A DNA stretch of 64,000 nucleotides from Streptomyces sp. NBC_01498 (GTDB taxonomy: Bacteria; Actinomycetota; Actinomycetes; Streptomycetales; Streptomycetaceae), in assembly GCF_036327775.1 (NCBI RefSeq), contig NZ_CP109598.1:6088001-6152000 (forward strand). Reading direction: 5' to 3'. The position numbers were made by a program, and so were the translations under genes. How positions within the stretch are numbered: position 1 is the stretch's first letter; every line of letters starts with the position of its first letter. The notes below the pieces were generated by a model that saw nothing but the letters and a program-made list of their open reading frames with translations, ran no database searches and was not told where the DNA came from. Positions 1,160 through 39,735 of this stretch are shown here, in pieces.

Positions 1160-1182
1160 ACCCTACGGCTCGCCACTGACAG
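1160..1182 (-). promoter_or_regulatory. PafBC/RecA-NDp-like promoter for the RecB-family nuclease
   Basis: On the minus strand CTGTCAGTG (1182-1174) is followed by exactly 8 nt and then TAGGGT (1165-1160). The mycobacterial RecA-independent damage promoter is TTGTCRGTG-N8-TANNNT; this site matches 8 of 9 upstream positions, the spacing and the -10. The start codon follows 7 nt later, so transcription probably begins at or next to the ATG. Regulation by PafBC is inferred from this match only. Confidence 0.6.
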
Positions 1183-9056: not shown

Positions 9057-9155
9057 CCGGAGCGTACGGTGCTTCAACTGCAATTCGGCCATGGGCACGT
9101 TGGGGGACGATCCCGACCCGCCGCGCCGTGCCATCGCATATCTGGAGGGAAACGC

Positions 9156-10001
9156 GTGGAAGCCAACACTCGTAGCACCGGGCGTCTGCCGGCTGCCTTC
9201 CTGACGCCCGGTTCGGCCTCGTTCATGGACTTCCTGTCCGTCCATTCGCCGGAGATCCTGCCGGGCAACCGGGTGCTGCCGCCCGTCCAGGGTGCGATCG
9301 AGGCGCCGCACGGGACGACGATCGTCGCCGTGACGTTCGACGGCGGGGTCATCCTGGCCGGCGACCGGCGGGCCACCATGGGCAACATGATCGCGCAGCG
9401 CGACATCGAGAAGGTCTTCCCGGCCGACGAGTACTCGGCCGTGGGCATCGCGGGCACGGCGGGTCTCGCGGTGGAGATGGTCAAGCTCTTCCAGCTGGAG
9501 CTGGAGCACTTCGAGAAGGTCGAAGGCGCGCAGCTGTCCTTCGAGGGCAAGGCCAACCGGCTCTCCACCATGATCCGCAGCAATCTGGCCATGGCGATGC
9601 AGGGCCTGGCCGTGGTGCCGCTGTTCGCGGGCTGGGACGTGGACCGGGCGAAGGGCCGCATCTTCTCGTACGACGTCACGGGCGGCCGTTCCGAGGAGCA
9701 CGGGTACGCGGCGACCGGCTCCGGCTCGCTCTTCGCGCGCGGTTCGATGAAGAAGCTGTTCCGTGAGGGGCTGACGGAGGAGCAGGCCGTCACGCTCGTC
9801 ATCCAGGCCCTGTACGACGCGGCGGACGACGATTCGGCCACCGGCGGCCCGGATGTCGCGCGCAAGATCTATCCCCTCGTCAACATCATGAGTGACGAGG
9901 GTTTCCGCCGGGTCTCCGACGAGGAGTCCTCGCGGACCGCCCGCGCGATCATCGAGCGCCGGCTGGAGCAGCCGGACGGTCCGCGCGCCGAGTTGCTCTG
10001 A
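9156..10001 (+). CDS. prcB: 20S proteasome beta subunit precursor PrcB
   Basis: A 281-residue proteolytic subunit. A 53-residue propeptide ends at His-Gly, and cleavage before Thr54 (G-T-T-I-V-A-V-T-F) would expose the catalytic N-terminal threonine. The following [14 protein letters not shown] segment holds the conserved Asp, Arg and Lys/Arg environment of the beta fold. I chose GTG 9156, which has GGAGGGA 5-6 nt upstream, over an ATG 87 nt earlier that would add an unrelated extension. It is followed by prcA after 58 nt that contain two small palindromes. Confidence 0.97.
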
Positions 10002-10059: not shown

Positions 10060-10833
10060 GTGTCGACGCCGTTCTATGTCTCACCCCAGCAGGCCATGGC
10101 CGACCGGGCGGAGTACGCCCGCAAGGGCATCGCCCGCGGTCGCAGCCTGGTTGTGCTGCAGTACGCCGACGGCATCGTCTTCGTCGGTGAGAACCCGTCC
10201 CGCGCGCTGCACAAGTTCAGCGAGATCTACGACCGGATCGGTTTCGCCGCCGCCGGGAAGTACAACGAGTACGAGAATCTGCGCATCGGCGGGGTCCGCT
10301 ACGCGGATCTGCGCGGATACACCTACGACCGTGACGATGTGACGGCCCGTGGGCTGGCCAACGTGTACGCGCAGACGCTGGGCACGATCTTCTCCAGCGC
10401 CGGTGAGAAGCCGTACGAGGTGGAGCTGGTCGTCGCGGAGGTGGGTGCGACGGCCGACGGGGACCAGATCTACCGGTTGCCGCACGACGGGTCGATCGTG
10501 GACGAGCACGGTTCGGTGGCGGTGGGCGGCAGTTCGGAGCAGATCAGTACGTTCCTGGACCAGCGGCACCGTGACGGCATGTCGCTCGCGGAGGCACTGA
10601 AGCTGGCCGTGCAGGCGCTGTCGCGGGACACCAACGGCGGTGAGCGGGAGATTCCCGCCGAGCGGCTGGAGGTGGCGGTGCTGGACCGGACGCGACCGCA
10701 GCAGCGGAAGTTCAAGCGTGTGGTGGGCCGTCAGCTCGCCCGGCTGCTGGAGGCGGACGGTGCGGCGTCCACACCGACGGACGCCCCGTCGGACGTCGAG
10801 GGCTCCGAGGGGTCCGGCGACGCCGAGAAGTGA
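10060..10833 (+). CDS. prcA: 20S proteasome alpha subunit PrcA
   Basis: A 257-residue structural subunit forming the outer rings and gate of the core particle. It begins [12 protein letters not shown], the alpha-type N-terminal helix and gate region, and contains the ARC-docking pocket side of the fold. It has no N-terminal threonine site. The C-terminal about 25 residues are acidic and Ser/Pro-rich. The GTG at 10060 follows GGAAGGGACGG. It forms an operon with prcB, ended by a strong hairpin. Confidence 0.96.
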
Positions 10834-13462: not shown

Positions 13463-14824
13463 ATGGACCGACGCATTTTCGGGCTGGAGAACGAGTACGG
13501 CGTCACGTGCACCTTCAGGGGGCAGCGCCGGCTGTCACCTGACGAAGTGGCGCGCTACCTCTTCCGCCGTGTTGTGTCATGGGGCCGCAGCAGCAACGTC
13601 TTCCTGCGGAACGGCGCCCGCCTCTACCTCGACGTGGGGTCGCATCCGGAATACGCGACACCCGAATGCGACAACGTGACCGAGCTGGTCACGCACGACA
13701 AGGCGGGCGAGCGCATTCTGGAAGGGCTGCTCGTCGACGCCGAACGCCGCCTGCACGAGGAGGGAATCGCGGGCGACGTCTATCTCTTCAAGAACAACAC
13801 CGATTCGGCCGGAAACTCCTACGGCTGCCACGAGAATTATCTCGTCGCCCGGCACGGGGAATTCTCCCGGCTCGCGGACATCCTCATCCCGTTCCTGGTC
13901 ACCCGGCAGTTGATCTGCGGGGCCGGCAAGGTGCTCCAGACGCCGCGCGGCGCGGTCTACTGCGTCAGTCAGCGTGCCGAGCACATCTGGGAGGGGGTCA
14001 GCTCCGCGACCACCCGTTCCCGGCCGATCATCAACACCCGTGACGAGCCGCACGCGGACGCGGAGCGGTACCGCCGGCTGCATGTGATCGTCGGCGACTC
14101 GAACATGTCCGAGACCACGATGCTCCTCAAGGTCGGCGCGACGGATCTCGTGCTGCGCATGATCGAGGCGGGCACGGTGATGCGTGACCTCACGCTGGAG
14201 AACCCGATCCGGGCGATCCGCGAGGTCAGCCACGACATCACCGGTCAGCGCAAGGTGCGGCTGGCCAGCGGGCGTGAGGCGTCGGCCATCGAGATCCAGC
14301 GGGAGTACTACGAGAAGGCCGTGGACTTCGTGGACCGCCGGGGCATCCGCACCGGCACCGTCGAGCAGGTCCTGGAGCTCTGGGGCCGGGCACTGGACGC
14401 CATCGAGGCGGAGGACCTGGACCGGATCGGTACGGAGATCGACTGGGTCATGAAGTACAAGCTCCTGGAGCGCTACCGGGCGAAGCACAACATGACCATG
14501 TCCCACCCGCGAGTGGCGCAGATAGACCTCGCCTACCACGACATCCACCGCCGCCGGGGGCTCTACTACCTGCTGGAGAAGCGCGGCCAGGCGGCCCGGA
14601 TCTGCAACGACATGAAGATCTTCGAGGGCAAGTCCGTGCCCCCGCAGACCACCCGGGCGCGGCTGCGCGGGGACTTCATCCGGCGGGCCCAGGAGCAGCG
14701 GCGGGACTTCACCGTCGACTGGGTCCATCTCAAGCTCAACGACCAGGCGCAGCGCACGGTGCTGTGCAAGGACCCCTTCCGTTCGGTGGACGACCGGGTG
14801 GAGAAGCTGATCGCCGGCATGTGA
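13463..14824 (+). CDS. pafA: Pup-protein ligase PafA
   Basis: A 453-residue ligase that phosphorylates the C-terminal Glu of Pup and joins it to substrate lysines. It begins [11 protein letters not shown], the same ATP-Mg motif as Dop, and contains [18 protein letters not shown] and [11 protein letters not shown]. It lacks the Dop loop and is about 50 residues shorter than Dop at 7016. The ATG follows a -10 box by 6 nt, so the transcript is probably leaderless. A hairpin ends the gene. Confidence 0.97.
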
Positions 14825-16326: not shown

Positions 16327-16423
16327 TCACCGTCCCGTCGCTGCCTGACCGCCCGGTGCGCGCCGTGTGAGCGCTGTCCGGCGGTGTCCGATCGGTGTCG
16401 TTGTCCGACCGGTCGTGGACGTA

Positions 16424-16455
16424 CGAGGGCCCATGCCGTCCGGCGTGGGCCCTCG
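16424..16455 (+). terminator. Terminator between the FKBP gene and pafB
   Basis: Arms 16424-16438 and 16441-16455 pair with one T-G wobble and a very tight turn, followed by GCTTTGTC. It isolates pafBC transcription from the FKBP operon. Confidence 0.8.
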
Positions 16456-16529
16456 GCTTTGTCGCGGGGGCGCCGGGCGGTACGGTCGACGCGCGGATGC
16501 GGCACGATCTGATGAGGTGTGGGGCGTCG

Positions 16530-17486
16530 ATGGCCATTGCCAAGGCCGAGCGGTTGATGAATCTCGCGTTGTGCCTGCTCGGCACCCGGCGCCCGCTCAG
16601 CAAGCGCGAGTTGCGCGAATCCATCGAGGCGTATCTGGAAGCCGGCTCGGACGACTCCTTCAACCGGATGTTCGAGCGGGACAAGGACGATCTCCGCGAA
16701 CTCGGCCTGGTCATCGAGACGGTGGAGAACCTCGACGGTGAGATCGGCTATCTGGCCCGCCGGGACAGCAACCGGCTGCCGGCCATCACCCTCGACGCCG
16801 AGGAGGCCGCGGCGCTCGGGCTCGCCGCGAAGGTGTGGCAGCAGGCGCGGCTCGCGGGCGCGGCCAGCGGCGCGCTCCAGAAGCTGCGGGCGGCGGGGAT
16901 GCCGGAGGCCGAGGACGCCTACGAGGCCCACCACAGCGCCCTGGAGCCCCGTATTCCGGTGCACGAGGCGGCGTTCGAGCCGTTGATGCTGGCGTGCCGG
17001 GACCGCAGGCCGGTGGTCTTCGACTACCGGAAGGCGAACGCGGCCAGGCCCGAGCAGCGCCAGGTGGAGCCGTGGACGCTGGAGTGCTGGCGGGGCCACT
17101 GGTATCTCGCCGGATGGGACCGGGAGCGCGGGGCGGAGCGGGTGTTCCGGCTGTCCCGGATCAGTGGCCGGGTGCGGGCGCGGACCGGGGCGTTCACGGT
17201 GCCGGTGCCGGACGTCGTCACGGTGCGGGAGACGGTGGAGAGCTGGGCGGGGGAGACGGCGACGCGTTCGGCGCTGATCCGGCTGCGCACCGAGAGCGGT
17301 TACCCGCTGCGGGCGCGGGCGGTCTCCTCGCGGGAACTGGGCGACGGCTGGGACGAGTTGGAGATTCCGTACGGTCACGGGCTGGACGCCTGGCTGGTGG
17401 AGTTCGGCCCCGACGTGGTCGTGCTGGAGCCCGCGGACCTGCGGGCCGATGTCGTGGAGCGGCTGCGCGCCGTGGCCAAGGGCTGA
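16530..17486 (+). CDS. pafB: WYL-domain transcriptional regulator PafB
   Basis: A 318-residue protein with an N-terminal winged helix-turn-helix (about residues 1-75, with P-L-S-K-R-E-L-R-E-S-I and F-E-R-D-K-D-D-L-R-E-L-G-L) and a WYL domain around E-P-W-T-L-E-C-W-R-G-H-W-Y-L-A-G-W-D. In mycobacteria PafB and PafC form a heteromeric activator of the RecA-independent DNA-damage response. The WYL region is the presumed signal sensor. The ATG at 16530 has GAGGTG about 10 nt upstream. pafC follows after 18 nt. Confidence 0.94.
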   Translation: MAIAKAERLMNLALCLLGTRRPLSKRELRESIEAYLEAGSDDSFNRMFERDKDDLRELGLVIETVENLDGEIGYLARRDSNRLPAITLDAEEAAALGLAAKVWQQARLAGAASGALQKLRAAGMPEAEDAYEAHHSALEPRIPVHEAAFEPLMLACRDRRPVVFDYRKANAARPEQRQVEPWTLECWRGHWYLAGWDRERGAERVFRLSRISGRVRARTGAFTVPVPDVVTVRETVESWAGETATRSALIRLRTESGYPLRARAVSSRELGDGWDELEIPYGHGLDAWLVEFGPDVVVLEPADLRADVVERLRAVAKG

Positions 17487-17504
17487 GGGGGACTCGTACA
17501 CATC

Positions 17505-18539
17505 ATGGCTGCCAACGCCATCGACCAGACGCGGCGGATGCTGTCGCTGGTGACGTATCTGCGGGAGCGGCCGGGCGCCCATGTCAGCGATGTGGCGCGG
17601 GCCTTCGGGATCACCGAGGACGAGCTGATCTCCGATCTCGACGTGCTGCCCATGTGCGGGACGAGCTTCCGCGGCGGGGATCTGCTGGACATCGACACCG
17701 ACGGCGACCGGATCTGGTGGCACAACCCGGACGACGTCGCGGAGCCGCTGCGGCTGGCGGCGGACGAGGCGACGGCGCTGCTGGTGGCGGCGCGCGCGGT
17801 GGCCACGCTGCCGGGACTGCGGGAGAGCGACCGGCAGGCGCTGCTGCGGGCCACGGCGAAGCTGGAGGCGGCGGCGGGCGAGGCGGCCGGTGCCAGCTCG
17901 CGGCTGTCGGTCATCTTCGAGTCCGAGGGCGGGGTGTTCGCCGAGGTCGACCGGGCGATCTCGGAGCGGCGGCGGCTGTGGCTGCGCTACTACTCACCGG
18001 CGCGGGACGAGCTGACCGAGCGTGAGGTCGATCCGATCAGGCTGTTCGCGGTGGGGCACACGTACATGGAGGCGTGGTGCCGGCTGTCGGAGGCGCGGCG
18101 TACGTTCCGGCTGGACCGGGTGGCGGAGATCCGCCTCCTGGACGCGCCGGCCGCGCCCCCGGAGCTGGAGCTGCGGGATCTGTCGGAGGGGCTGGTGCAG
18201 CCGTCGGCGGAGGACCCTGAGGTGGTGGTCGAGGTGGGGCCGGGCGGACGCTGGGTCGCCGAGTACTACCCGCACGACAGCGCGGAGGAGCTGCCCGGCG
18301 GGGGGATGCGGATCACCCTGCGTACCCCGGCGCCCGCGTCCCTGCGGCGGCTCGCGCTGCGGCTGGGCGGCGACGGCCGTATCACCTCGCCGCCGGAGCT
18401 GGCGGAGAGCGCGCGGCGGGCGGCCGGTGAGGCGCTGGCGGCGTACGACTCGGTCGGGACCGACACGGTCGGGGCACCGGACCGCGAGCGGGGCCGGGAC
18501 CAGGACCGGGACCCGGGGGTCGGGGGAACAGGTCCGTGA
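17505..18539 (+). CDS. pafC: WYL-domain transcriptional regulator PafC
   Basis: A 344-residue partner of PafB with the same architecture: winged helix (H-V-S-D-V-A-R-A-F-G-I-T-E-D-E-L), WYL domain (R-R-R-L-W-L-R-Y-Y-S-P-A-R-D) and a C-terminal WCX-type extension. The last about 25 residues are a charged low-complexity tail. The ATG at 17505 follows GAGGGGGA. The stop overlaps the next gene (GTGA), so the small zinc-ribbon protein is translationally coupled. Candidate target promoters in this window are at 1160-1182, 21493-21515 and 38090-38112. Confidence 0.94.
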   Translation: MAANAIDQTRRMLSLVTYLRERPGAHVSDVARAFGITEDELISDLDVLPMCGTSFRGGDLLDIDTDGDRIWWHNPDDVAEPLRLAADEATALLVAARAVATLPGLRESDRQALLRATAKLEAAAGEAAGASSRLSVIFESEGGVFAEVDRAISERRRLWLRYYSPARDELTEREVDPIRLFAVGHTYMEAWCRLSEARRTFRLDRVAEIRLLDAPAAPPELELRDLSEGLVQPSAEDPEVVVEVGPGGRWVAEYYPHDSAEELPGGGMRITLRTPAPASLRRLALRLGGDGRITSPPELAESARRAAGEALAAYDSVGTDTVGAPDRERGRDQDRDPGVGGTGP

Positions 18540-21492: not shown

Positions 21493-21515
21493 CTGTCAGA
21501 GGTGCCGGGTAGGCT
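21493..21515 (+). promoter_or_regulatory. PafBC/RecA-NDp-like promoter for the helicase
   Basis: CTGTCAGAG (21493-21501), exactly 8 nt, then TAGGCT (21510-21515). This matches 7 of 9 upstream bases, the spacing and the -10 of the RecA-independent damage promoter. The helicase ATG begins 10 nt after the -10. Confidence 0.5.
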
Positions 21516-36165: not shown

Positions 36166-37011
36166 TCAGGCCGCCGGACTCTCCTGCTCGCGCTCCACCT
36201 GCTCGTTCCACTCGCGCTTGACCGCGCGCCACGCCTCGTCGTTCTGGCCCAGCCGCCAGTAGCCCGAGATGGACAGCCGCTCGCGCGGGATCGCGCGGTC
36301 CTGCCGCAGATGGCGGCGCAGCTCCTTCACGAACCCGGCCTCGCCGTGCACGAAGGCGTGCACGTCACCGGGTGGGAACTCCAGCGCCCGCACGGCCGTG
36401 ACCAGCGCCGCGCCGAACGGGCGCTCCCCGCGGTGCAGCCAGACGATGTCGGCGCCGGGCGGAGCGGCGATCTTCAGCTCCTCGTCCGGGCCCTCGACCT
36501 CCAGGAGGACCACCATCCGGGCGCCCTCCGGGGCCCGCTCCACGGAAGCGGCTATCGCGGGCAGCGCGCTCTCGTCCCCCACGAGCAGATGCCAGTCGGC
36601 CGCCGGGTCCGGGGTGTACGACCCGCCGGGCCCCAGGAACCGCACCGTCTCACCGGGCTGGACGGCAGCCGCCCAGGGGCCGGCCAGGCCCTCGGAGCCG
36701 TGCACGACGAAGTCGATCGTCATCTCGCCGGCGGCCCGGTTCCACTCGCGCACCGTGTACGTACGGGAGGTGGGCCACTGCTCACGCGGCAGCTCCGCGC
36801 GGATCCGGTCCAGGTCGAACGGCTCCGCATAGCTCACCCCCTCCGGGGCGAACAGCAGCTTCACGTAGTGGTCGGTGAACTCGTCCGCGTCCAGCCCGGC
36901 GGCTCCGTCGCCGCCGAGGACCAGGCGCACCATGTGCGGTGTGATCCGCCGGGTGCTCACCACGCGTGCCTCGCGGACCTTCGGTGACGTACGTGTCTGC
37001 TGTGCTGCCAC
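36166..37011 (-). CDS. Siderophore-interacting protein (FAD-linked ferric reductase)
   Basis: A 281-residue protein of the ViuB/SIP family that reduces Fe(III)-siderophores in the cytoplasm. The FAD-binding motif is T-S-R-T-Y-T-V-R-E-W, followed by G-P-W-A-A-A-V-Q-P-G and the SIP C-terminal domain with V-H-A-F-V-H-G-E-A-G-F-V and L-S-I-S-G-Y-W-R-L-G. The GTG at 37011 has GGGGAGA upstream. An iron box 50 nt before the start implies repression by DmdR1/IdeR when iron is sufficient. Confidence 0.94.
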   Translation of the reverse strand: MAAQQTRTSPKVREARVVSTRRITPHMVRLVLGGDGAAGLDADEFTDHYVKLLFAPEGVSYAEPFDLDRIRAELPREQWPTSRTYTVREWNRAAGEMTIDFVVHGSEGLAGPWAAAVQPGETVRFLGPGGSYTPDPAADWHLLVGDESALPAIAASVERAPEGARMVVLLEVEGPDEELKIAAPPGADIVWLHRGERPFGAALVTAVRALEFPPGDVHAFVHGEAGFVKELRRHLRQDRAIPRERLSISGYWRLGQNDEAWRAVKREWNEQVEREQESPAA

Positions 37012-37060
37012 GGCGGTCTCCCCTGACTGGTATGGGCGCCCCTCGACGCGCGGGAGTTGC

Positions 37061-37079
37061 TTAGGTTTACCTAACCTAA
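37061..37079 (-). promoter_or_regulatory. DmdR/IdeR-type iron box
   Basis: On the minus strand TTAGGTTAGGTAAACCTAA is a 19-nt near-palindrome matching the consensus TTAGGTTAGGCTAACCTAA at 17 of 19 positions. It lies 50 nt upstream of the siderophore-interacting protein start. Confidence 0.85.
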
Positions 37080-37162
37080 CACTCCGCCGCCGGGGTTACC
37101 TCCGGTCCGGCTCCCGGTGGACACTCCCGTCCCTCCAGCCTCCGCCGTGACGCCCCGAGCCG

Positions 37163-38083
37163 CTACTTCCCGAGCGTGACGAGCAGCCGGTGCAGCGCGT
37201 TGTTGAGCCCCCAGCGGGAGGCCAGCGCCTCCAGGGTCTCCGGATCGAGCGGCTCGGCGGGCAGCGCCGGATCGAAGGCGGGCAGCGGGACGTCCCCGGC
37301 GACCCGCACCACCGTCGGCGCGACCGCCAGATAGGCCCGCGACTCGTCAAGCCGCTTGCGCTGCGAGGGCGTCAGCGCGGAACGGGGGTCGTCGACGGCC
37401 GCCATGATCCCCGCCAGGTCGCCGTACGCGTCGATCAGCTTCGCGGCCGTCTTCTCACCGATCCCCGGCACCCCGGGGAGCCCGTCGCTCGGGTCGCCGC
37501 GCAGCAGCGCCAGATCCACATAACCGGGCCCGTCCACCCCGTACTTCCCGCGCAGCCACGCCTCGTCCGTCACCTGGAGCGAGCCGACACCCTTCAGCGG
37601 ATACAGCACCCGCACCCCGCGCGCGTCGTCCACCAGCTGATACAGATCCCGGTCGCCCGTGATGATGTCCACCGGCCCGGACGCGCGGGCCGTGAGGGTG
37701 CCGATCACATCGTCCGCCTCGTACCCCGCGACGCCCACGCGGGCGATGCCCAGCGCGTCCAGCACCGCCTCGATGACCGGCACCTGCGGCGCGAGCGTGT
37801 CGGGCGTCTCCTCCTCGTCCGGCCCCTCCGGCGTCTCGACCGCCACCCGGTGCGCCTTGTACGACGGGATCAGATCCACCCGCCACTGGGGCCGCCAGTC
37901 CGCGTCCCAGCAGGCCACGAGATCGTCCGGCCGGTGGTCCTGGACGAGCCGGGCGATGAAGTCGAGCAGCCCCCGCACCGCGTTCACGGGCGTACCGTCG
38001 GGGGCCCGCACCGAGTCGGGGACGCCGAAATAGGCGCGGAAGTAGAGGGAGGCGGTGTCGAGGAGCATCAGGCGTCGCGTCAC
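37163..38083 (-). CDS. 5'-3' exonuclease (Pol I N-terminal/FEN-like)
   Basis: A 306-residue stand-alone flap/5' nuclease. The metal-binding acidic residues appear in M-L-L-D-T-A-S-L-Y-F-R, C-W-D-A-D-W-R-P-Q-W-R, Y-E-A-D-D-V-I-G-T-L and I-T-G-D-R-D-L-Y-Q-L. The helix-3-turn-helix DNA-binding motif is D-G-L-P-G-V-P-G-I-G-E-K-T-A. It should remove RNA primers and flaps in replication and repair. I chose GTG 38083 because a PafBC-type promoter ends 6 nt upstream, making a leaderless transcript; the longer open frame is unsupported. No hairpin was seen after its stop. Confidence 0.93.
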   Translation of the reverse strand: MTRRLMLLDTASLYFRAYFGVPDSVRAPDGTPVNAVRGLLDFIARLVQDHRPDDLVACWDADWRPQWRVDLIPSYKAHRVAVETPEGPDEEETPDTLAPQVPVIEAVLDALGIARVGVAGYEADDVIGTLTARASGPVDIITGDRDLYQLVDDARGVRVLYPLKGVGSLQVTDEAWLRGKYGVDGPGYVDLALLRGDPSDGLPGVPGIGEKTAAKLIDAYGDLAGIMAAVDDPRSALTPSQRKRLDESRAYLAVAPTVVRVAGDVPLPAFDPALPAEPLDPETLEALASRWGLNNALHRLLVTLGK

Positions 38084-38089
38084 ACCCCG

Positions 38090-38112
38090 ATGATGCCCCA
38101 CGGCACTGACAA
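38090..38112 (-). promoter_or_regulatory. PafBC/RecA-NDp promoter for the 5'-3' exonuclease
   Basis: On the minus strand TTGTCAGTG (38112-38104), exactly 8 nt, CATCAT (38095-38090), then 6 nt to the GTG start. The upstream 9-mer is a perfect match to TTGTCRGTG; the -10 departs from TANNNT only in its first base. The rest of the 309-nt gap 38084-38392 contains a C-rich run near 38150 and no gene. Confidence 0.65.
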
Positions 38113-38392
38113 CGGCCGCCGACGTGCGCACCGGCCGCGCACCCGCCCCCGTCCCCCCCCGTCTCCCCGTTCCCCGATGCTCGTCCCCTCGCCCCTCCGG
38201 TCCGTGACCGCGCGCGGTCGGTGCCCGGCGGCGTACGTTGGAGGGTGGCGCTACGTGGCAGTAACCGGAGCGTCCCCGCCGTGTCCGCCCGCCTGTTCGT
38301 ACCGGAGGCGGATCGGCGGCGGGTGGGGCGGACCGCCCTTGCGAGGCCGTCAACTCTGAGAGGATGACGGCCCGGCCGGAGGGAGCCCAGAC

Positions 38393-38941
38393 ATGGACGA
38401 CAAGGAAGCGCTCAGGGTGGGCGCCGCCGTCCGAAGGCGGCGCAGGTCCCTGGGGCTGACGCTGGCGGCCGTCGCCGACCGCAGCGGACTGTCCGTACCG
38501 TTCCTCAGCCAGATCGAGAACGAACGCGCCCGGCCCAGCGCCCGCTCGCTGGAGCGGGTGGCCGGCGCACTGGAGACCAGCACGGCCGCGCTGCACGCCG
38601 CGGCCGACTCGGCACGCACCGTCGACGTCGTACGGGCCGGGGACGGCGCTCCCGGGGTGCGCCGGGTGGCCCGCGGCGGACACCAGCTGCACGCCAAGGA
38701 GTACACCGGCGAACTGGACACCGGGCGCGAGTACCAGCACCGCAACGACGAGGTCATGTACATCGCCGACGGGTCGGTGGAGGTCGAGGCCGAGGGCTGC
38801 GCCTACCGCCTGGAGCGGGGCGACACCCTGTACCTCTCCGGGGGAGTCCGGCACCGCTGGCGGGCCACCGAGCCCGGCACCCGCATCCTGGTCGTCGCCG
38901 TCGCCGAGCAGATCGACGCGACGTACGACACCCGCCGCTGA
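38393..38941 (+). CDS. XRE-family regulator with cupin domain
   Basis: A 182-residue protein. Residues about 9-64 are a lambda-repressor-type helix-turn-helix (L-T-L-A-A-V-A-D-R-S-G-L-S-V-P-F-L-S-Q-I-E). Residues about 100-178 are a cupin fold (Y-Q-H-R-N-D-E-V-M-Y-I-A-D-G-S-V and L-E-R-G-D-T-L-Y-L) that binds a small effector. The ATG at 38393 follows GGAGGGAG. The next gene starts 11 nt after its stop, so the two are probably cotranscribed. Regulated genes unknown. Confidence 0.92.
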   Translation: MDDKEALRVGAAVRRRRRSLGLTLAAVADRSGLSVPFLSQIENERARPSARSLERVAGALETSTAALHAAADSARTVDVVRAGDGAPGVRRVARGGHQLHAKEYTGELDTGREYQHRNDEVMYIADGSVEVEAEGCAYRLERGDTLYLSGGVRHRWRATEPGTRILVVAVAEQIDATYDTRR

Positions 38942-38952
38942 GCGCCTCCGCC

Positions 38953-39735
38953 ATGACCACCGGGAACAGCGTGCCGAGGGCGAGCGTGCCGCCGGGGCCG
39001 CTGTCTGCGGCGGGTCCGCGCGGCCCCCGTGTGGTGTCGCTCGTCCCCTCGCTCACCGAGGCCGTCGCGGTCAGCGCGCCGGGCCTGCTGGTCGGCGCGA
39101 CCGACTGGTGCACCCACCCCGCCGGCCTCGGCGTCGCGCGCGTCGGCGGCACCAAGAACCCCGACGTCGCCGCGATCGTCGCGCTGCGCCCCGATCTCGT
39201 GGTCGCCAACGAGGAGGAGAACCGCGCGCCTGACCTGGCCGCGCTGCGCGCCGCGGGCATCGAGGTCCTGGTGACCGAGGTGCGCGACCTCGACCAGGCG
39301 TTCGCCGAACTGGAACGGATGCTGGTGACCGGGTGCGGGCTCGCGGTGCCGCGCTGGCTGGAGGAGGCCCGCGACGCGTGGGCGGCGGTGCCGCCTCCGT
39401 ACGGAGAGGGGCGCCGGGCGGTCGTACCGATCTGGCGCAGGCCCTGGATGGTGCTCGGCCGGGACACCTTCGCCGGGGACCTGCTGGCCCGGCTCGGGGT
39501 GCGCAACGTCTACGCCGACCGGGCCGAGCGCTATCCGCGGGTCCCGCTGGAGGAACTGCGGGCCTGCGGGGCCGATCTGGTGGTGCTGCCCGACGAGCCG
39601 TACCGCTTCACCGCCGACGACGGGCCCGAGGCGTTCCCCGGGCTGCCGGCGGCGCTGGTCGACGGGCGGTTCCTCACCTGGTACGGGCCGTCGCTGGCCG
39701 GGGCGCCGGCGGTGCTGCGGGCAGCGCTCCGCTGA
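38953..39735 (+). CDS. BtuF-like helical-backbone metal receptor, without signal peptide
   Basis: A 260-residue protein with the TroA/BtuF fold: R-V-V-S-L-V-P-S-L-T-E-A-V near the N-terminus, V-G-A-T-D-W-C-T-H-P, and L-R-P-D-L-V-V-A-N-E-E-E-N-R. Binding proteins of this fold usually carry vitamin B12 or ferric chelates to an ABC transporter. Here there is no signal peptide or lipobox and no transporter nearby, so a cytoplasmic role is likely. Its 3' end overlaps the convergent transporter gene by 62 nt. Confidence 0.85.
   Translation: MTTGNSVPRASVPPGPLSAAGPRGPRVVSLVPSLTEAVAVSAPGLLVGATDWCTHPAGLGVARVGGTKNPDVAAIVALRPDLVVANEEENRAPDLAALRAAGIEVLVTEVRDLDQAFAELERMLVTGCGLAVPRWLEEARDAWAAVPPPYGEGRRAVVPIWRRPWMVLGRDTFAGDLLARLGVRNVYADRAERYPRVPLEELRACGADLVVLPDEPYRFTADDGPEAFPGLPAALVDGRFLTWYGPSLAGAPAVLRAALR

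Follow-up and report, generated by a model that had tools for sequence, protein, structure and literature searches.

A RecA-NDp/PafBC-type promoter with predicted leaderless geometry before a stand-alone flap nuclease gene, and a candidate PafBC regulon in Streptomyces

Directly upstream of a stand-alone 5′-3′ exonuclease gene in Streptomyces lies what is very probably a PafBC-dependent promoter, whose leaderless mRNA would encode a FenA-type flap nuclease and which would be one of about 45 to 55 promoters of a PafBC regulon predicted from the genome sequence. From this site, located in a 64-kb window (the whole stretch of DNA that was analysed), we infer PafBC binding, induction by DNA damage, the start of the transcript and a repair role of the nuclease. 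In the proposed mechanism, DNA damage would give rise to single-stranded DNA, which on being bound by PafBC would render it active; active PafBC would let the housekeeping RNA polymerase use promoters that carry TTGTCRGTG and a −10 without a good −35; and transcription of the nuclease gene would begin at its GTG, the mRNA being translated leaderless. A wider reading, held with less assurance but still favoured, is that the sites make up the full PafBC regulon of Streptomyces, about half of it leaderless under a 6–7-nt rule, with two classes of −10 and with targets gained or lost via the 9-mer on a fixed leaderless core.

Layout of the focal promoter and its gene

On the minus strand, positions 38112–38090 of the window read TTGTCAGTG-N8-CATCAT, with the GTG of the exonuclease gene 6 nt further on (Table 1); reading that strand confirmed the arrangement described in the earlier note. 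The 9-mer matches the upstream element TTGTCRGTG exactly, as had also been claimed, and the whole consensus TTGTCRGTG-N8-TANNNT is departed from only at −12, where CATCAT has C instead of T; the spacing, the A at −11 and the T at −7 all fit. A non-T at −12 is common to 23 of the 43 strict sister sites of the genome (defined below). Correctly oriented and just 5′ of the gene start, the site reads as one more RecA-NDp/PafBC-type promoter, a promoter kind already known.

Table 1. Positions of the promoter elements and genes in the window
Feature	Position	Strand	Remarks
Second PafBC-type promoter, CTGTCAGTG-N8-TAGGGT	1160..1182	−	One mismatch; 7 nt before ATG of a PD-(D/E)XK nuclease gene (PF12705)
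Two proteasome subunit genes	9069–10001, 10060–10833	+	PF00227
pafA, Pup ligase	13463..14824	+	PF03136; marks the Pup-proteasome locus
pafB, WYL + WCX	16395..17486	+	Translation probably begins at an internal ATG; residue 46 onwards aligned with 7p5x chain AY
pafC, HTH_PafC (PF19187) + WYL + WCX	17505..18539	+	Matches the 7p5x chain named PafC
Weak candidate site	21493..21515	+	Two mismatches; start of a DSHCT-type (HelY-like) helicase gene
Stand-alone 5′-3′ exonuclease/flap nuclease gene	37163..38083	−	GTG start, 306 aa; PF02739 + PF01367
Start codon GTG of the nuclease gene	38081..38083	−	
6 nt between −10 and start codon	38084..38089	−	Predicted leaderless start at or beside the G of GTG
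−10 hexamer CATCAT	38090..38095	−	TANNNT with C at −12
8-base spacer CCGTGGGG	38096..38103	−	In orthologues, within a conserved block GTRCGG adjoining the −10
Upstream element TTGTCAGTG, RecA-NDp/PafBC-type	38104..38112	−	Exact 9-mer; conserved in many Streptomyces orthologues

The nuclease harbours the 5_3_exonuc_N and 5_3_exonuc domains without a polymerase domain, and polA is a separate gene elsewhere in the genome (site L070). Against NCBIfam models the protein scores near PolA and stand-alone exonucleases, under their cut-offs. Its closest solved chains are 6c33–6c36, named ‘5′-3′ exonuclease’, which we take to be FenA of M. smegmatis; as the alignment with 6c33 begins at residue 1 of both proteins, the GTG start fits.

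Sister sites, their genes and their start codons

The number of 9-mers in the window is unremarkable (2 versus 0.48 expected; equalled in 9 of 100 shuffles, thus a mild excess), as it would be if the focal site were a chance match ahead of an ordinary gene. The composite pattern with up to two mismatches, in turn, was found five times in the window, exceeding all of 100 shuffles (mean 1.19, maximum 4). Over the whole genome (7.27 Mb, single contig), the exact TTGTCRGTG-N8-TANNNT occurs 21 times versus 0 for the backward pattern, TTGTCAGTG-N8-NANNNT (the strict sites) 43 times versus 0 for the reversed pattern, the composite with at most one mismatch 56 times versus 1, and the bare 9-mer 48 times versus 9 for its control. 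Moreover, among the 48 exact 9-mers, 43 are followed at just this distance by a hexamer with A at −11 and T at −7. Chance is contradicted by this genome-wide excess, by conservation at a fixed position among orthologues and by the company of repair genes (both below); it was rejected on the genome-wide counts and the orthologue conservation, and we give it a very small probability. The set of 54 sites used in the following consists of the 43 strict sites plus 11 near-match sites with one mismatch in the 9-mer, L061 (before a DnaB helicase gene) and L076 being left out of the 56 as their mismatch lies in the −10.

By Pfam scan of the downstream ORFs, 10 of the 43 strict sites precede repair-type genes: recA, ruvC, polA (DNA polymerase I), dinB (Y-family polymerase), ligA (NAD-dependent), the genes of an lhr-type helicase, a DinG/YoaA-type helicase, a uracil-DNA glycosylase family protein and an RNase_T exonuclease, and the focal nuclease gene. 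The scan covered 37 of the 43 strict downstream genes; L007, L012, L028, L029, L030 and L073 were left unscanned because the downstream gene is doubtful. Among the 11 near-match sites, seven precede repair-type genes, which encode UvrB, a UvrD-type helicase, an endonuclease III-type protein, a DNA alkylation repair protein, presumably a RadA-like protein (by domain make-up), a RecD2-HHH protein (L019; the RecD2-type call rests on one HHH domain) and the PD-(D/E)XK nuclease at window position 1160. The classification as repair-type is the author's judgement throughout.

The genome-wide search proposed in the earlier note was thus run, and enrichment was seen: enzymes of repair, recombination or replication stand behind 17 of the 54 sites versus 1 of 19 control ORFs (Fisher's P=0.018, or P=0.06 if a SNF2 helicase is included and the control count becomes 2 of 19). 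The control is small, with 20 evenly spaced places less L177, which has a motif site of its own; its sole repair gene is a UvrD helicase, and 4 of the 19 ORFs are without a Pfam match and may be in wrong frames. Under a repair background of 5%, which is assumed and unmeasured, P values of 6e-10 (17 of 54) and 4e-5 (10 of 43) are obtained.

Other targets include genes of GNAT, PrsW protease, arginase-family, pentapeptide-repeat, ALF-repeat, TerD, PhoH and MoxR-like ATPase proteins. A ribosomal protein S6 gene follows one strict site and was not counted as repair; the S6 operon usually holds ssb. The earlier proposal of a PafBC-controlled set of nucleic-acid enzymes is supported, in that the computations able to refute it did not do so; it is qualified by the targets of other types, by the weak site at 21493 and by the patchy conservation of the element (below). 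Of the two further window sites cited along with it both exist, the one at 21493 being the weaker because of its two mismatches and of in-frame starts that lie 1 and 10 nt after the −10.

Two observations concern the remaining targets. Exact or near-match sites are found before ALF-repeat, pentapeptide-repeat, PrsW protease, DUF4132 and TerD genes (L015, L035, L013, L165 and L171, respectively), which are candidate damage-response genes. In addition, L006 and L027 (genome positions 2641271–2641343) form two PafBC-type promoters back to back, 27 bp apart, that front a MoxR-like ATPase gene and a SWIM zinc-finger gene.

Flap nucleases and polymerases are generally part of damage responses, and control of the nuclease by LexA within the SOS response, in place of a LexA-independent switch, would be in keeping with this. 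However, no site resembling the SOS box GAACNNNNGTTC was found from 36426 to 39292, even with one mismatch, and the count of GAACNNNNGTTC-like sites in the window is at the level of chance. SOS control of the nuclease was thus rejected for want of such a site near the gene, leaving it highly improbable, and the result is suggestive only as to LexA independence.

The start codons behind the sites follow a narrow spacing. A potential start codon (ATG or GTG) is positioned exactly 6 nt (9 sites) or 7 nt (13 sites) after the −10 in 22 of the 43 strict sites, versus 121 of 1,959 (6.2%) for NANNNT elsewhere in the same loci (P=7e-16). In 19 of the 43 this codon shares the reading frame of the first-choice ORF (P=2e-12 versus the 6.2%), the three of the 22 leaderless-like sites that are out of frame with it being L012, L029 and L073; a start at 6–7 nt is also shown by 7 of the 11 near-match sites. 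According to the available part of PMC8079986, the −10 averages 6.3 nt before the transcript start in S. lividans, and leaderless transcripts account for 17% in S. lividans and 21% in S. coelicolor; compared with these fractions, 19 of 43 gives P=3e-5 and P=5e-4, respectively.

In the 43 strict sites the identities of the bases at −12 and −8 are associated, and two classes of −10 can be distinguished: class 1 (20 sites), with T at −12 and mostly G before the last T (TAnnGT), and class 2 (23 sites), with C, G or A at −12 and mostly A or C before the last T ([C/G]AnnAT). In class 2, TG precedes the −10 in 11 of 23 sites, A stands before the last T in 12 of 23, and T is found more often at spacer position 6. 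Differences between the classes, which were noticed first and tested afterwards, have uncorrected Fisher's P values from 0.0006 to 0.009; the classes possibly reflect different polymerase contacts. Leaderless geometry showed no significant difference by −10 class (7 of 20 versus 15 of 23; P=0.07).

A related observation was made at recA. In this genome (L004) and in 14 other genomes of the genus (L238–L251), a GTG lies 7 nt after the RecA-NDp −10 (8 nt in L248) and in frame with RecA, 12–13 codons 5′ of the ATG of MAG (VKRSTQANRVEP-MAG). As judged from this spacing, a leaderless start may be used at recA as well; alternatively, the upstream GTG could be kept by conservation of a ribosome site.

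Gain and loss of the element on a conserved core

For 80 orthologues of the nuclease from named genomes, the nearest of which belong to Streptomyces, the element was sought within 100 bp of the start, 8 nt ahead of a NANNNT. TTGTCRGTG with at most one mismatch (R allowed) was found in 35 of them, versus 0 at eight other offsets, 0 for the reversed pattern and a mean of 0.14 (highest 20) for 200 permuted patterns; with at most two mismatches 48 match, though one permuted pattern hit 44. All of the 35 have an in-frame start 6 nt (18) or 7 nt (17) after the −10, close to the published S. lividans distance from −10 to transcript start (6.3 nt; available part of PMC8079986), which agrees with the earlier view of the GTG as the true start of a predicted leaderless message. 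These 35 span Streptomyces, Kitasatospora, Actinacidiphila, Promicromonospora, Cellulomonas, Micromonospora and Nonomuraea, with N-termini that differ between genera. With the −10 as anchor of the alignment, the 9-mer has six columns of 0.95–1.5 bits and three of 0.5–0.6 bits, versus 0.15–0.7 bits for the 20 columns on its upstream side; because the orthologues share ancestry, neither column nor locus counts are independent.

The same alignment raises the alternative of a conserved, mostly constitutive leaderless promoter built on the extended −10 block GTRCGGCATSAT, with a TTGTCAGTG effect that is modest, strain-specific or decaying. The block is conserved more strongly than the 9-mer, columns 11–22 on the whole ranking above it. 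All 54 Streptomyces-named orthologues have a NANNNT with an in-frame start codon 6–7 nt downstream of it, and of the 16 Streptomyces-named loci with at least three mismatches in the 9-mer, 13 keep CGGCATSAT. The element itself is present with at most one mismatch in 27 of the 54 (at most two: 38 of 54), and in 8 of 15 genomes of a second genus sample, whose species may overlap with the first. Against a merely constitutive core stand the exact and correctly spaced 9-mer in this genome, the fact that most 9-mer columns rise above the flank across orthologues, and the M. smegmatis orthologue, which is lowered without PafBC in the available part of PMC5656591. A constitutive core with a minor role for the 9-mer is thus considered unlikely, albeit much the weightiest of the alternatives, and PafBC-dependent control remains the preferred reading.

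In the 15 genomes of the second sample, the element at recA is exact in all 14 loci found and that at polA, allowing one mismatch, is present in 13 of 15. As the element is lost while the core remains, the leaderless core looks old and stable in the genus, with a PafBC element that is gained and lost. Because about half of the Streptomyces orthologues are without the element though the core promoter stays, PafBC control of the nuclease, to the extent that promoter comparison can tell, looks like an evolvable add-on, unlike that of recA.

Outside these groups, the element with at most one mismatch was found in none of the 14 nuclease loci read in families f4, f19, f26, f30 and f33 (a fifteenth, L236, was unreadable). 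In f4, presumably the mycobacterial family, four of the five loci read are without a spaced element within 200 bp, and the fifth (L237) has a two-mismatch element 6 nt before a GTG.

The GTRCGGCATSAT block (window 38084–38103; L077–L156) shows more conservation than a −10 would seem to require, and it persists in loci that have lost the element. As a genome-wide promoter class, TRCGGCATSAT was rejected: it occurs 15 times versus 7 for the reversed pattern, and none of the 15 has a start codon 6–7 nt downstream.

The regulator, known systems and implications

Both PafB and PafC are encoded within the window (16395–18539), next to the Pup-proteasome genes, and the greater part of each protein aligns with solved PafBC chains, those of 7p5x, which we take to be a polymerase complex. 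A PafC match (E 1e-20) was found in 16 of 16 genomes of the genus, the E value being 1e-170 or better in the 15 other than our own, and in 177 of 197 genomes of the class. Over the 16 genus genomes (own included), 398 strict sites were counted versus 2 control sites (944 versus 18 for a looser pattern), each genome having at least 10 and the largest count being 40. Where no PafC match was obtained at E 1e-20 (20 genomes), strict sites number 16 versus 5 controls, or 83 versus 29 for the looser pattern, and G015, a 78%-complete genome, contributes 5 of the 16; PafC-bearing genomes outside the genus often have few sites or none (none in G095, G104 and G126). PafC presence is therefore weak as proof of motif use, sites occurring in PafC-less genomes and few in PafC-bearing outsiders, and kinship confounds the comparison.

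Two genomes of family f19, G154 and G174, harbour 63 and 119 strict sites, respectively, above the genus maximum. Among the 11 sites listed for G154, six are identical copies (TTGTCGGTGCCCGCCCGTAGGGT), as though a repeat or mobile element had carried them around.

A genuine element might also be read by a regulator other than PafBC, such as ClgR, whose claim to the RecA-independent promoter in mycobacteria is discussed in the available part of PMC5656591, or by one of the further WYL proteins of this genome (seven matches, PafB and PafC included). Yet it is PafB and PafC that align with the solved PafBC chains, and all 16 genus genomes combine PafC with an excess of the motif, versus 16:5 in the PafC-less genomes, a contrast confounded by kinship. 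A reader other than PafBC is accordingly improbable, and PafBC is retained as the likely regulator.

The closest known systems are the RecA-NDp/PafBC promoters of mycobacteria, where activation of PafBC by single-stranded DNA and sigma adaptation have been described (PMC11804915, in its available part). In M. tuberculosis, 75 motifs of the form TGTC[AG]G-N10-TANNNT were tied to 126 genes (PMC8151990, likewise in part). The sites described here share that geometry, the repair targets and an encoded PafBC, and differ in that TTGTCAGTG is dominant, that 23 of 43 have a non-T at −12 and that half show leaderless geometry. For the nuclease itself, the available listing for an M. smegmatis pafBC deletion (PMC5656591) includes, as reduced, the 5′-3′ exonuclease MSMEG_3883 (−1.6), homologous to the focal nuclease, along with RecA and MoxR proteins. 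The promoters differ, four of the five f4 loci read being without the spaced element and L237 having two mismatches; the f4 proteins resemble 6c33. MSMEG_3883 is presumably FenA.

Within Streptomyces, a RecA-NDp promoter 5′ of SCO6735 of S. coelicolor goes with UV induction of that gene (PMC5087735, in the part available), which makes SCO6735 and recA of S. coelicolor cases of the same promoter type in the same genus. That study dealt, in the same part, with one gene and its orthologues, recA being compared, whereas the present set is genome-wide and includes a flap nuclease, and is known from sequence. A 2022 study of LexA in S. venezuelae left the RecA/LexA-independent damage response of Streptomyces open, since the mycobacterial PafBC motif, according to an initial search, did not seem to be conserved there (PMC9380542, as far as its available text goes). 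The genus counts conflict with this remark, S. venezuelae not being singled out among the genomes counted. No report of a genome-wide PafBC regulon in Streptomyces was found in the literature within reach of our search, which took in few subscription papers.

The excess of the motif makes the question of a RecA/LexA-independent response in Streptomyces directly testable, with a short list of promoters and genes, and leaderless start codons are predicted for many genes of the regulon. It also provides a clean case of gain and loss of a regulatory element on a fixed core, from recA (14 of 14) through polA (13 of 15) to the flap nuclease (8 of 15). The predicted genome-wide, half-leaderless regulon is a more interesting result than the focal site alone. 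The promoter pattern suggests that Streptomyces has a second, SOS-independent DNA-damage regulon; if this is true, the damage response would have leaderless translation built into it.
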